Assembly (NCBI GenBank): GCA_903944555.1
Contig: CAJASG010000260.1
Location: 1-12,137 of the forward strand
Reading direction: 5' to 3'
DNA: 12,137 nucleotides
DNA from: an uncultured beta proteobacterium
GTDB lineage: Bacteria > Pseudomonadota > Gammaproteobacteria > Burkholderiales > Burkholderiaceae_C
Part shown: piece after piece, positions 482-10,828 of the stretch
How the letters are laid out: every line of letters begins with the position of its first letter
Numbering within the stretch: the first letter of the stretch is position 1
Translations under genes and position numbers: made by a program
The notes under the pieces: generated by a model
Seen by the model: only the letters and a program-made list of their open reading frames with translations
Database searches by the model: none
What the model was told of the DNA's origin: nothing

Positions 482-1864
482 ATGTCCGAATCAACCGTCA
501 CCAACCACGCCCTAAGCCCTGAAGCCGAGATGCTGGAACTCGTGGAGCAAACCAGTGCGGCATGCAAAGCCATGGTGGCCCATTGCGCTGACCAGCATGC
601 CGCCGAGTTGGCCGACTATTTTTACAACGGCATGCTGCAATATCCGCAGGCCAGCCTGTTCCTGGATCACGCTATCGTGCATGACCGCTTGCACAGCTCC
701 ATGCAGCGTTGGCTGCGTGAGTTGTTTGGCCACCCTCACACAGATATGGCCAAACTGGCAGCCCACCAACTGCATGTTGGGGCCGTACACGCCCGTATTC
801 AGCTCCCGCTGCACTTGGTGACGCGCGGTGCGCGCTTGCTCAAACAACGCTTCAAGCAGCGTGTGCCTGACTACTGCACAGACAATGCAACGCATCTCGA
901 AGCGCTGGGCTACATCAGCCAAATGATGGACCTGGCGTTGGAGCTGATGAGTTCATCCTACCTGCGCAATACCGAGCGCGAAGTGCGCAGCGACGAAGCC
1001 TACCGGCTGTTTTCCATGGGCCAGAACATGGCCGTAGAGCGTGAGCGCCAGCGCTATGCCCTGCTGGAGTGGAGCCAGGAGGCGCTGTTTACTCTGCACC
1101 GCCCAATGCGCCCCGTGATGTTGCCGCGTCTGAGCAATGCCGAGTTTGGGCTCTGGTTCACCCATAAGGCTGCGGTGGTCTTTGAGGGTTCACCTGAGAT
1201 CCAGTTCATCCAGGAGTCGATGATCAACATCGACACCATGCTGCTGCCGCAATTGCAGTCACTGTCGCCACAGGACTTGAAAAGCAATGAACTAATTGCC
1301 GAGTTGCAGTCGCTGCTCGAAGGGATCAAGTTCCAACTCTCCACGCTCTTTGAGCGCCAGTTGGAGGTAGAAAATGGCCGCGACGCCCTGACCCGTCTGC
1401 TCAACCGCCGCTTCTTGCCCTCGGTCATGAGCCGCGAGATCCACATGGCGCAAACCCAGGGCCACAGCTTTGCGGCGCTGCTGCTGGACATTGACCACTT
1501 CAAGGTGGTCAACGATGTCCATGGCCACGAGGCAGGTGACATGGTGCTGCAGCAAGCCGCTGCCATCATTGTCAATGCCGTGCGAAACGGTGACTTTGTG
1601 TTTCGCTACGGCGGTGAAGAAGTGGTGGTCATGCTGGTGGAAGTGAATGCGGAAGTAGCGCAGCGCATTGCCGAAAATATCCGCAAACAATTTGAAGCCA
1701 ATGAGTTCCTGATTGGCCAAGGACGAAGCGTCCGTGCCACGATCAGCATTGGCTTGGCCATGCACGACGGCCACCCGGACCACCAATACCTGATACGTCG
1801 GGCCGACCAAGCCATGTACGAAGCGAAATCTTCGGGCAGAAACCGGATTTGCATAGCCAAATAG
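482..1864 (+). CDS. dosC: Globin-coupled haem sensor diguanylate cyclase (DosC/YddV type)
   Basis: Cytoplasmic 460-residue enzyme predicted to make c-di-GMP from two GTP under control of haem-bound gas. Residues about 15-165 form a globin-sensor domain. H103 in the motif VHARIQLP matches the proximal haem histidine of E. coli DosC, and Y48 in YFYNGML matches its distal tyrosine, which hydrogen-bonds O2. Residues 175-300 are the helical middle domain, with FGLWFTHK as in DosC. Residues 300-460 are the GGDEF domain, beginning DALTRLLNRRFLP. The active-site signature is GGEEV (377-381) instead of GG(D/E)EF, while both acidic residues are kept. An inhibitory-site RxxD (R368-D371) lies five residues before it, so product feedback is expected. 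There are no membrane helices. The start ATG at 482 has only a weak GTGGG upstream. No partner phosphodiesterase (DosP) lies in the window. The 3' end runs into a repeat. Assignment rests on recalled similarity to DosC through all three domains. Confidence 0.93.
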   Translation: MSESTVTNHALSPEAEMLELVEQTSAACKAMVAHCADQHAAELADYFYNGMLQYPQASLFLDHAIVHDRLHSSMQRWLRELFGHPHTDMAKLAAHQLHVGAVHARIQLPLHLVTRGARLLKQRFKQRVPDYCTDNATHLEALGYISQMMDLALELMSSSYLRNTEREVRSDEAYRLFSMGQNMAVERERQRYALLEWSQEALFTLHRPMRPVMLPRLSNAEFGLWFTHKAAVVFEGSPEIQFIQESMINIDTMLLPQLQSLSPQDLKSNELIAELQSLLEGIKFQLSTLFERQLEVENGRDALTRLLNRRFLPSVMSREIHMAQTQGHSFAALLLDIDHFKVVNDVHGHEAGDMVLQQAAAIIVNAVRNGDFVFRYGGEEVVVMLVEVNAEVAQRIAENIRKQFEANEFLIGQGRSVRATISIGLAMHDGHPDHQYLIRRADQAMYEAKSSGRNRICIAK

Positions 1865-1913
1865 GCCTTTGGCCCAATGAATACGTGCGCAGCTAGCTCA
1901 CATATTCATAGCA
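1851..1913 (-). repeat. Degenerate ~60-bp dispersed repeat, copy 1 (between convergent stops)
   Basis: On the minus strand the element starts TGCTATG at 1913, one base after the permease stop codon, continues through AGCTAGCTGCGCACG, and ends TTTGGC at about 1856, overlapping the stop codon and last codons of the cyclase gene. Aligned without gaps to the minus-strand copy in the response regulator (10392-10331) it matches at 34 of 62 bases, and at 22 of the first 32, sharing the octamer GCGCACGx and the GGG and TTTG blocks at identical spacing. It lies between two converging genes and may also fold (GGCC-TTT-GGCC at 1864-1874), but there is no T-run to make it a classical terminator. Confidence 0.6.
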
Positions 1914-3145
<1,232 letters not shown>

Positions 3146-8900: not shown

Positions 8901-9959
8901 ATGAATTCCCTTTTCTGGTCCTCCCTCGCACGGCGCCTCATTGTGGCGATGGCATTCAACACCGTGATTGCGTTGGGAATTACCGCATTTGGTGAGCATC
9001 ACTTGGGCATCAACTTCGTGTATTCCCAGTGCATTGGCCTGTCCATCTGGGCACTGCTGGATTTTGGCTACAGGCTCCTGACCCCGAACTGTGTGAACAG
9101 GTGGCGCCGCCTGTTCTGGGTCGTTCCGCTGGGCGCCACCCTTGGCTACGTGATCGGCACACTGGTGGCCGACACCCTGCTAAGCACCCACAGCTTTCAT
9201 TACTGGACGAATGCGCCCGGCAAAGCCGTTGGTTTCCTGATCCTGAGTCTGGTCGCTGGCACTGCCAGCACCTATTACTTCATGAGTCGCGAGCAACTGG
9301 CCAGCGCGCGCGAAGGCCAAGCCCACGCCGACGCCCAAGCCCAAGCCGCCCAGCGCCAAGCCGCCGAATCGCAACTCAAGCTGCTGCAAACGCAGCTGGA
9401 GCCGCACATGCTGTTCAACACCCTGGCCAACCTGCGGGTGCTCATCGGGCTGGACGCTGCGCGGGCGCAAGACATGCTGGACCATCTGGTGGCCTACCTG
9501 CGGGCCACGCTGGACGCATCCCGCGCCACCCGCCATAGCCTGCAGGCAGAGTTTGACCGGCTGAGGGACTACCTGGAACTGATGGCCGTGCGCATGGGGC
9601 CGCGTCTGCGCTACACGCTGGACCTGCCGCCAGAGCTGGCGAACCTGCAAGTGCCGCCCTTGCTGCTGCAGGCGCTGGTGGAAAACAGCATCAAACACGG
9701 CTTGGAGCCTCAGGTGGAAGGCGGCTCCATCACGGTATCGGCCCGCCTTGACGGGGGCCTGTTGACGCTGGAAGTGGCGGATACCGGTGCGGGCTGCAGT
9801 GCCGACCTCAACTTGCCGCCCGAACCCTCCGCCAGCTTTGGTCTGGCACAGGTGCGGGCACGCCTGCATACCAGTTACGGCGATCTTGGTACTATCAAAT
9901 TTATAGCTGGTCACGCAGGTGGTATGCGGGTTAGCATCACTTTTCCCTCTGAAAAATGA
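8901..9959 (+). CDS. LytS/AlgZ-type sensor histidine kinase
   Basis: A 352-residue membrane sensor kinase. Four helices lie at about 12-32, 38-60, 72-96 and 110-130, followed by an Ala/Gln-rich signal helix (residues about 133-160) coded by a run of GCC-CAA-like repeats. The kinase core is of the His_kinase (PF06580) class: phospho-acceptor H169 in EPHMLFNTLANL, N-box E261-N262 in ENSIKHG, and G-box DTGAGC. The closing strand GGMRVSITFP is present, but the segment TIKFIAGHAGG before it is encoded by a dispersed repeat. No periplasmic domain is large enough for a sensing fold, so a signal within the membrane is likely. The stop overlaps the regulator start as ATGA. Only 15 bases separate it from trhA, and no ribosome site is obvious, so it is probably cotranscribed with the lipid genes. 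Confidence 0.93.
   Translation: MNSLFWSSLARRLIVAMAFNTVIALGITAFGEHHLGINFVYSQCIGLSIWALLDFGYRLLTPNCVNRWRRLFWVVPLGATLGYVIGTLVADTLLSTHSFHYWTNAPGKAVGFLILSLVAGTASTYYFMSREQLASAREGQAHADAQAQAAQRQAAESQLKLLQTQLEPHMLFNTLANLRVLIGLDAARAQDMLDHLVAYLRATLDASRATRHSLQAEFDRLRDYLELMAVRMGPRLRYTLDLPPELANLQVPPLLLQALVENSIKHGLEPQVEGGSITVSARLDGGLLTLEVADTGAGCSADLNLPPEPSASFGLAQVRARLHTSYGDLGTIKFIAGHAGGMRVSITFPSEK
9891..9944 (+). repeat. Degenerate ~60-bp dispersed repeat, copy 2 (3' end of kinase gene)
   Basis: ACTATCAAATTTATAGCTG (9891-9909), then CGCA, GGGTTAGC (9928-9935) and TTTT at 9941-9944. Compared without gaps with the minus-strand copy in the regulator gene it matches at 34 of 53 bases, including blocks TAGCTG, CGCA, GGGTTAGC and TTTT at identical spacing. 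It is translated in frame as TIKFIAGHAGGMRVSITF, the last strand of the kinase ATPase domain. Core arms CTAT/ATAG form a small dyad around AAATTT. Confidence 0.6.
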
Positions 9960-10828
9960 ACCCAACCCAGGCCCCCACCGCGCTGCTGGCCGAAGACGAG
10001 CCCCTGCTCGCGGCGGCCCTCCAAGCCGAGTTGGCCAGGTTGTGGCCCGAACTGGTGGTGCTGGCCTGCGTCGGCGATGGCAATTCGGCCGTCACCCAGA
10101 GCCTGGCGCTGGCGCCCGATGTCCTGTTTTTTGACATCCGCATGCCGGGCCAAAGCGGTATCGACGCGGCGCTGGCCCTGGCGGACGCCTGGATCACCAC
10201 TGGGCCGCAGGCCAAACCCTTTCCGGCGCTGGTGTTCGTCACCGCTTACGACCAGTACGCCGTAGCCGCCTTTGAAGCCCAAGCCATCGATTACGTGCTC
10301 AAGCCGGTGAAACCGGATCGGCTTCAAAAAACAGTATCAAAACTGCAGCTAACCCTTACCAGTCGTGCGCAAGCAGCTACCAAATCAATAGCATCCACAT
10401 CGTCTGGCGATCTGCTGTTGGACGATACGCTGGCCCAGTTGCGCCACTTGCTGGGCGCGGCACAGTCCACCTCACCCACGGGCACACCGACCACGGCAGT
10501 ACCGCTGCTCACGGTCATCCAGGCCAGCGTGGGCAACACCATCCGCATGGTGCCCATTGCCGACGTGCTGTGCTTTGAGGCCGCCGACAAGTACGTGCGC
10601 GTGCTCACCACCGAGCGCGAGTACCTGATCCGCACACCCCTGAAGGAGTTGCAGGAGCAACTCGACACCCAGGTGTTCTGGCAAATCCACCGGGGCACGG
10701 TGGTGCGGGCGCAGGCCATTGAATCCATCACCCGGGATGAGGCCGGCAAAACCCTGCTGCGCTTGCACGGGCTACAGGAAAAGTTTGTGGTCAGCCGCCT
10801 TTACAGCCACCTGTTCAAGGCGATGTGA
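9956..10828 (+). CDS. LytTR-family response regulator
   Basis: A 290-residue cytoplasmic transcription factor, partner of the upstream kinase. The receiver domain (about 8-124) has acidic pocket E13-D14, phospho-acceptor D60 in FFDIRMPG, T96 in FVTAYD and K116 in VLKPVK, all intact. A long variable linker (about 125-175) follows, its first 21 residues encoded by a dispersed repeat in reverse orientation. The LytTR DNA-binding domain (about 176-288) shows IADVLCFEAADKYVRVLT and the FWQIHRGTVV block. Regulators of this type (LytR, AlgR) bind direct repeats and often control surface or membrane genes. The start overlaps the kinase stop (ATGA), indicating translational coupling. Its stop is three bases from the stop of the converging outer-membrane gene. 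Target sites are not identified. Confidence 0.95.
   Translation: MNPTQAPTALLAEDEPLLAAALQAELARLWPELVVLACVGDGNSAVTQSLALAPDVLFFDIRMPGQSGIDAALALADAWITTGPQAKPFPALVFVTAYDQYAVAAFEAQAIDYVLKPVKPDRLQKTVSKLQLTLTSRAQAATKSIASTSSGDLLLDDTLAQLRHLLGAAQSTSPTGTPTTAVPLLTVIQASVGNTIRMVPIADVLCFEAADKYVRVLTTEREYLIRTPLKELQEQLDTQVFWQIHRGTVVRAQAIESITRDEAGKTLLRLHGLQEKFVVSRLYSHLFKAM
10331..10394 (-). repeat. Degenerate ~60-bp dispersed repeat, copy 3 (regulator linker)
   Basis: On the minus strand: GCTATTGATTTGGTAGCTG, CTTGCGCACG, ACTGGTAAGGGTTAGC, TGCAGTTTTGATACTG (10392 down to about 10333). Its ends GCTA/TAGC form a dyad. It is the most complete copy and anchors the alignments: 34 of 53 against copy 2, 34 of 62 against copy 1, both ungapped. 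On the coding strand it reads in frame as T126 to A146 (KLQLTLTSRAQAATKSIA), the start of the linker between receiver and LytTR domains. Confidence 0.65.

Follow-up and report, generated by a model that had tools for sequence, protein, structure and literature searches.

The locus and its repeat copies

The window analysed here, a stretch of 12,137 nucleotides, carries a two-gene operon on its plus strand: a sensor histidine kinase gene (8901-9959; Pfam PF06580, of the His_kinase type, and PF02518) whose stop codon overlaps the start of a response regulator gene (9956-10828), the product of which joins a receiver (PF00072, residues 10-127) to a LytTR DNA-binding domain (PF04397, residues 195-289). 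A copy of a dispersed repeat (10327-10394, plus strand) lies in frame over the helix between these two domains. It scores 52.2 bits (E 5.9e-16 within the window) and spans positions 4-71 of R1, a sequence-only model built from 22 copies in the window's own genome; because all 22 had the exact core, R1 favors copies of that kind. The first-pass annotation of this DNA had already proposed that the repeat is translated in frame in the regulator linker, and so it is, as QKTVSKLQLTLTSRAQAATKSIA. Its 3′ block (10366-10393, plus strand), made up of the near-invariant core TGCGCAAGCAGCTA and a GCTA..ATAGC end, agrees with the own-genome consensus at 25 of 28 positions and has a block z of 6.2.

Two further copies were expected from that annotation, one in the kinase gene and one about 8.5 kb away, and R1 finds both. 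The kinase-end copy (9892-9957, minus strand, 16.9 bits) covers the kinase's final codons, but it is antisense to the linker copy, from which it lies ~370 bases away in the opposite orientation. The distant one (1847-1912, plus strand, 18.3 bits) is degenerate and had been placed between two unrelated genes; it in fact runs across the stop codon of a GGDEF gene, which ends at 1864, into the adjoining intergenic DNA. When the 64 bases of the linker are compared directly with every window position on both strands, the best ungapped matches are 38/64 at 9889-9952 (minus) and 35/64 at 1851-1914 (plus), followed by 32 and 30. The same two places come out on top with and without R1. These matches are similar in size to the 34/53 and 34/62 reported earlier, although the exact figures were not recovered.

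Searches of Rfam with positions 9800-10500 gave three matches, all far below gathering scores, and BLASTN against plasmid and phage collections returned none, on which ground a plasmid or phage origin was rejected. Two viral contigs in IMG/VR contain the 3′-block pattern of the repeat (L433, 11213-11240; L434, 1219-1246).

Abundance and genomic setting of the family

The window's genome (4.07 Mb in 792 contigs) yields at least 150 R1 matches among 1,747 candidates, all with E ≤ 5e-11, and the core GCGCAAGCWGCTAY occurs there 249 times with at most one mismatch, as opposed to five times for a backward control. The proposal of a real, degenerate and dispersed repeat, in nucleotide-level excess in its host genome, is borne out by these counts. 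Its suggested association with the Comamonadaceae fits as well, with named relatives and the window's family group carrying the repeat. The exact core is found 128 times in the window's genome, and 56 of 200 genomes in the family group have a match, with a maximum of 177 per genome. A survey of 300 genomes of the order found one exact core in 21 of the 291 that lie outside the family group, and more than one in none. Of the genomes tested with R1, the eight that have a linker copy give at least 150 matches each and the two that lack one give none.

The copies of the window's genome are far from uniform. Pairwise identity among 178 of them averages 0.64 (0.55 in the 5′ block, 0.78 in the 3′ block), at a mean GC content of 0.452. 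The linker copy had been called the most complete, which is true inside the window only: it matches the majority consensus of its genome at 40 of 68 positions, and 173 of 178 other own-genome copies come closer. The open literature was searched for this repeat family and no description was found, subscription papers being mostly outside the scope of that search; the absence is weak evidence of novelty.

Where copies sit was assessed on 182 distinct copies of at least 25 bits. Thirty are wholly within coding frames by a strict codon-usage rule, while a simple, looser gene finder places 55 inside genes, 33 sense and 22 antisense. The remainder fall between tandem (70), convergent (37) or divergent (8) gene pairs or at contig edges (12), set against 313 tandem, 71 convergent and 62 divergent pairs in a background from the same loci, which partly overlap and in which pairs bearing copies are counted. 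Measured from a copy to the stop codon upstream, the gap has a median between -2 and 10 bases. All 28 submitted proteins (27 coding-copy open reading frames plus the regulator) have a Pfam match. One helicase-associated gene on contig C789 (DUF3418, HA2), which we take to be HrpA-like, bears two copies ~105 bases apart (L255 and L301). Strand was followed in one genome, OS-4 (G499), where 25 exact cores are on the plus and 8 on the minus strand; no replichore-polar switch was visible there by eye, on a genome whose origin was not mapped. This ratio is more uneven than that of most copy-rich genomes, and G308 (18, 34) is also uneven.

A repeat lying over the linker helix

Comparison with 80 orthologous regulators (81 with the window's own) bears directly on how the linker copy arose. 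R1 detects a linker copy in 29 of the 80; on the minus strand it detects a copy upstream of the regulator, presumably in the kinase gene, in 26; in one locus (L148) the upstream match lies ~210 bases further upstream. Calls that combine the matrices with a synonymous-shuffle control divide the 81 regulators into 34 element-bearing, 41 repeat-free and 6 intermediate and unscored, and on the regulator tree these states require a minimum of 11 changes. The Polaromonas matrix had contained one orthologous linker copy (L112, there as L223); with this shared copy removed, three rows switch and the classes become 35, 39 and 7 of 81.

The first-pass annotation held that the element had inserted and been kept as coding sequence, and pointed to a 21-residue segment that relatives might lack. 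The alignment speaks against both. Counted from KP to the column aligned with the window's RAQ, the linker has 24 residues in all 34 regulators that bear the repeat and in 40 of the 41 that do not, and since the two groups agree in length, the repeat lies on codons native to the gene. The linker helix is, judging from these alignments, a feature that exists independently of the repeat that overlies it. Recent insertion into the linker was accordingly rejected, as repeat-free orthologues keep the helix at its full length; a linker shared at protein level by orthologues had been the annotation's own criterion for refutation. Total linker length is 37 residues in 15 of the 34 repeat-bearing regulators, which is also the repeat-free mode; the window's linker has 48, so that some residues have been gained downstream of the helix. 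In the nine rows compared from Rhodoferax, Polaromonas and Acidovorax orthologues the linker copy keeps the same register, and to judge by this agreement across three genera it is old.

Codon choice in these linkers favors the repeat well beyond what protein sequence and codon usage would predict. None of 500 synonymous shuffles that sample the gene's own codon usage scores as high as the window's linker, nor did any of 500 when the shared Polaromonas copy was left out, and the kinase-end copy gives the same result (0/500). Within the element GC3 is 0.29, as compared with 0.85 in the rest of the regulator gene. Across the 34 element rows the three blocks have mean z values of 2.35, 2.07 and 4.97, exceeding 2 in 22, 19 and 33 rows, respectively. 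Codon sharing between clades (23 rows assigned to clades, 197 element-bearing pairs) is 72% in the element and 59% elsewhere for element-bearing pairs, 57% and 61% for element-free pairs, and 32% and 58% when an element-bearing row is paired with an element-free one.

That AT-rich codons might resemble the repeat by accident is an explanation to which we give next to no credence, even with the window's copy among the least consensus-like of its genome. It is opposed by the shuffles, which never reach the observed score, by an excess in as many as 34 of 81 regulators, and by GC3 outside the element, which is unrelated to genome copy number (rho -0.20, p 0.16). Codon bias was rejected on the shuffles and on this lack of relation.

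The linker score, by comparison, rises with the number of copies in the genome (rho 0.83, or 0.73 when z is used; 51 genomes), the copy count for the window's genome having come from a slightly wider pattern than those for the others. Among 24 copy-rich genomes (at least 60 matches) 22 carry the linker site, one does not (L126) and one is intermediate; among 19 copy-poor genomes (at most 15 matches) the site is absent from 15, intermediate in four (z 3.3-5.0) and carried by none. Copy-poor genomes therefore mostly spell the helix with ordinary codons, and a few keep a weak signal. Scored genomes number 38 of the 51, after eight with 16-59 matches and five intermediates (one copy-rich, four copy-poor) were dropped, and in these the site is present in 22/23 copy-rich and 0/15 copy-poor genomes. 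Removal of the shared copy changes this to 22/23 and 1/15, one of the four copy-poor genomes with residual signal being reclassed as a carrier. The tree offers only three to five independent pairs, which agree in direction (sign test p 0.25), so the sequence comparison is suggestive of a linker state that tracks genome copy number.

Insertion and overlay in other genes

A further overlay is found in rmlD, where the element covers codons 119-141. Orthologues were found 21 times in 24 searched genomes, and the compared 37-residue segment is ungapped in all 21. Four carry the element at the equivalent place, and the nearest relatives (G492, G493) have native GC-rich codons there; this comparison rests on protein rows, plus-strand codons and R1 matches. 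Even in its native form RmlD resembles the repeat peptide at the position of the overlay. In L389 and L392 rmlD has another repeat position, around residue 275.

Measured against PDB homologues, the other coding copies differ in what they add. LpxB and HpnC, like RmlD, align across the element without a gap; an OppD-like protein differs by -1 to +2 residues, FolC has 4 more, TilS 4 to 6 more and the CCA enzyme 6 more; RarA has 6 fewer. ThiL gains about 11 and MetH 19. Taking the metH query with the best 120 of 7,881 homologues, the corresponding segment is 20-23 residues long in 49, 42-46 in 49, 29 in 13 and of different lengths in 10. By this alignment metH has a true in-frame insertion of ~20 codons. 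The insert in the window's genome (L012, reverse strand 962-1813) is an antisense reading of the repeat; in other metH proteins its identity as repeat was judged by protein sequence only. What the earlier annotation described thus survives as an abundant dispersed repeat read in frame, with insertion being real in metH but not at the regulator.

The metH case is an argument for a mobile palindromic element that inserts in frame, as Rickettsia palindromic elements (RPEs) do, in which case the regulator copy would be ancient and its flanks later trimmed. This account also gains from the mainly gene-end or intergenic locations, and from reading frame: 28 of the 30 coding copies use two frames, the ones most often stop-free (114 and 118 of 182 copies). 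It is nonetheless an unlikely one, given that the regulator, rmlD, lpxB and hpnC have no indel and that inspection of the consensus by eye reveals no terminal inverted repeat, which together with a target-site duplication marks a MITE. For the regulator, evolution in place or conversion is a better explanation than insertion; metH is explained by insertion.

A proposed double-stranded site rather than an RNA stem

The kinase-end antisense copy and the regulator sense copy, ~370 bases apart in one transcript, could in principle pair or form hairpins and so act at the RNA level. In favor of such a function, an upstream minus-strand match and a plus-strand linker match occur together, in the same order, in 23 of 80 orthologous loci, and the consensus ends in GCTAT..ATAGC. 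Covariation and folding point elsewhere. The 24 strongest covarying pairs in 178 own-genome copies include no distant pair, all being 1-2 bases apart (AA with TT, CC with TT, AT with TA), and covariation in the Acidovorax and Polaromonas sets (34 and 33 copies) is near shuffle maxima. The consensus fold is weak, with compensatory change in 0 of 6 predicted pairs, and in-gene copies take both orientations. We regard a role in RNA as highly improbable; an RNA stem in particular was judged unlikely on the neighbor-only covariation and the weak folds. A/T content along the unit shows a periodicity near 11 bp, with no significance test attached. Together, the neighbor covariation and this periodicity would suit a double-stranded site read partly by its shape.

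Interpretation

The reading that we prefer, at a probability of just under one half, is that the repeat is a dispersed ~66-bp double-stranded DNA site of Comamonadaceae, and that compatible coding stretches have been pulled towards its motif by substitution. A DNA-binding protein would recognize the core together with A/T tracts at a spacing of ~11 bp, and compatible codons would be drawn towards the motif by biased recombination or by selection; the regulator linker would then be a helix in the protein and a site in the DNA at the same time. One candidate user is a protein of DNA topology, such as gyrase, as suggested by copies located at the ends of genes and within convergent pairs, in parallel with BIMEs. 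A DNA-uptake receptor is another, suggested by dialects and in-place evolution that resemble those of uptake sequences. Gyrase-like and uptake-receptor use are both candidates, which the present analysis does not separate.

Several observations count against the preferred reading. Insertions occur elsewhere, ~20 codons in metH and 4-11 residues in thiL, tilS, folC and the CCA enzyme, and these gains make insertion part of the story. A residual excess (z > 3) is seen in four of the 19 copy-poor genomes, and these four sit outside the 0/15 count. Copy scores are also two-peaked: in 293 kb of stretches taken around strong copies, 98 of 137 matches of at least 5 bits score at least 45, and 22 lie between 10 and 45, a degenerate tail that is absent from three shuffles. 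Two peaks suit copying.

Genus-specific forms weigh on both sides. The consensus differs between the window's genome, Acidovorax and Polaromonas, and the own-genus matrix scores best for 3/3 Acidovorax and 4/4 Polaromonas linkers tested. Three other linkers are not scored best by the matrix of their own genome, which again tells against the preferred reading: the window's linker scores 52.9 with its own matrix and 64.0 with that of Polaromonas, L092 scores 25.6 with its own and 52.4 with that of Acidovorax, and L099 scores 33.5 with its own and 51.2 with that of the window's genome.

These patterns may also be accommodated by copying and overwriting, a form of gene conversion in which DNA with partial similarity to the repeat is paired with, and then replaced by, a copy that is single-stranded or recombining. 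Such a process would leave no indel and could keep copies close to the genus consensus, as is seen in the three Acidovorax and four Polaromonas linkers; the two-peaked scores, and the resemblance of native RmlD to the repeat peptide at the overlay, speak for it too. On the other hand, own-genome copies that average 64% identity, and 55% in the 5′ block, offer little for homologous recombination, and the linkers of the window, L092 and L099 depart from the consensus of their own genomes. On balance we hold gene conversion to be somewhat unlikely.

Returning to a site approached by substitution, a broader form of that proposal may be advanced tentatively, as a possibility that we would not yet bet on: that the ~66-bp unit is a recognition site with genus dialects, kept at set positions in conserved genes through in-place rewriting of codons, and that many protein segments in Comamonadaceae may be constrained by it and by the protein fold together. 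We know of no uptake or segregation signal as long as ~66 bp.

Genes for conserved proteins would seem to bear constraint at the DNA level, with the same helix spelled in repeat-like or in ordinary codons, and the spelling largely following the presence of the family in the genome. The family lends itself to testing how dispersed signals in DNA enter coding sequence, be it by insertion, conversion or substitution. It also counsels caution, in that linker sequence and codon choice in Comamonadaceae need not mirror protein function alone.

Comparison with known repeat systems

REP and BIME sequences occur next to stop codons and in the space separating convergent genes, and bind gyrase or IHF. 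The repeat described here shares their preference for gene 3′ ends and convergent pairs (37 convergent versus 8 divergent), but sits within coding sequence too. REPs, in the portion of the literature drawn on here, are palindromes of 20-40 bp tagged by GTAG or CGTC (PMC3733652), and the present consensus, judged by eye, is without a short palindrome so tagged.

Another comparable repeat is the betaproteobacterial repeat element, or BRE, known from Comamonadaceae and Bordetella, with some copies coding (PMC3110155). Like BRE, our family is dispersed in Comamonadaceae and partly within coding sequence. According to the sections of that paper used here, Bordetella BREs measure 75-91 bp, average 69% GC and are partly tandem, and 1-29 copies are listed per genome (PMC3110155); the present repeat, at ~66 bp and 45% GC and with more copies, is set apart by this description, the sequences being unaligned.

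RPEs provide a close parallel for a repeat that is dispersed, in frame in unrelated conserved genes and recognizable by its encoded peptide, and the residue-adding insertion in metH extends the likeness. The unit here is shorter, ~66 bp as opposed to the ~150 bp given for RPEs in the part of PMC10969869 used. Unlike RPEs, most copies add little to their proteins: of ten coding copies set against PDB homologues, one has gained 19 residues and one ~11, and eight have gained 6 or fewer or none. At the regulator no residue-adding insertion was found, with 24 residues either way. Nor was stem covariation seen, or a long foldback palindrome, the fold being weak and covariation confined to neighbors.

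The uptake sequences of Neisseriaceae and Pasteurellaceae (DUS and USS) are instructive in a different manner. The excerpted accounts describe lineage-specific dialects (PMC3630211) and an origin by point mutation, not insertion, without orientation bias (PMC1939737). Differences are plain enough, since the present unit is ~66 bp rather than 9-12 and includes some true insertions. Copy number is some hundreds, set beside the 943 exact DUS reported for N. cinerea in the portion of PMC3630211 drawn upon. Yet dialects exist here as well, with a consensus that varies among the window's own, Acidovorax and Polaromonas genomes; single linker copies follow the local dialect in Acidovorax and Polaromonas but not in the window, L092 or L099. 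No indel accompanies the repeat in the regulator, rmlD, lpxB and hpnC, and metH has an insertion.
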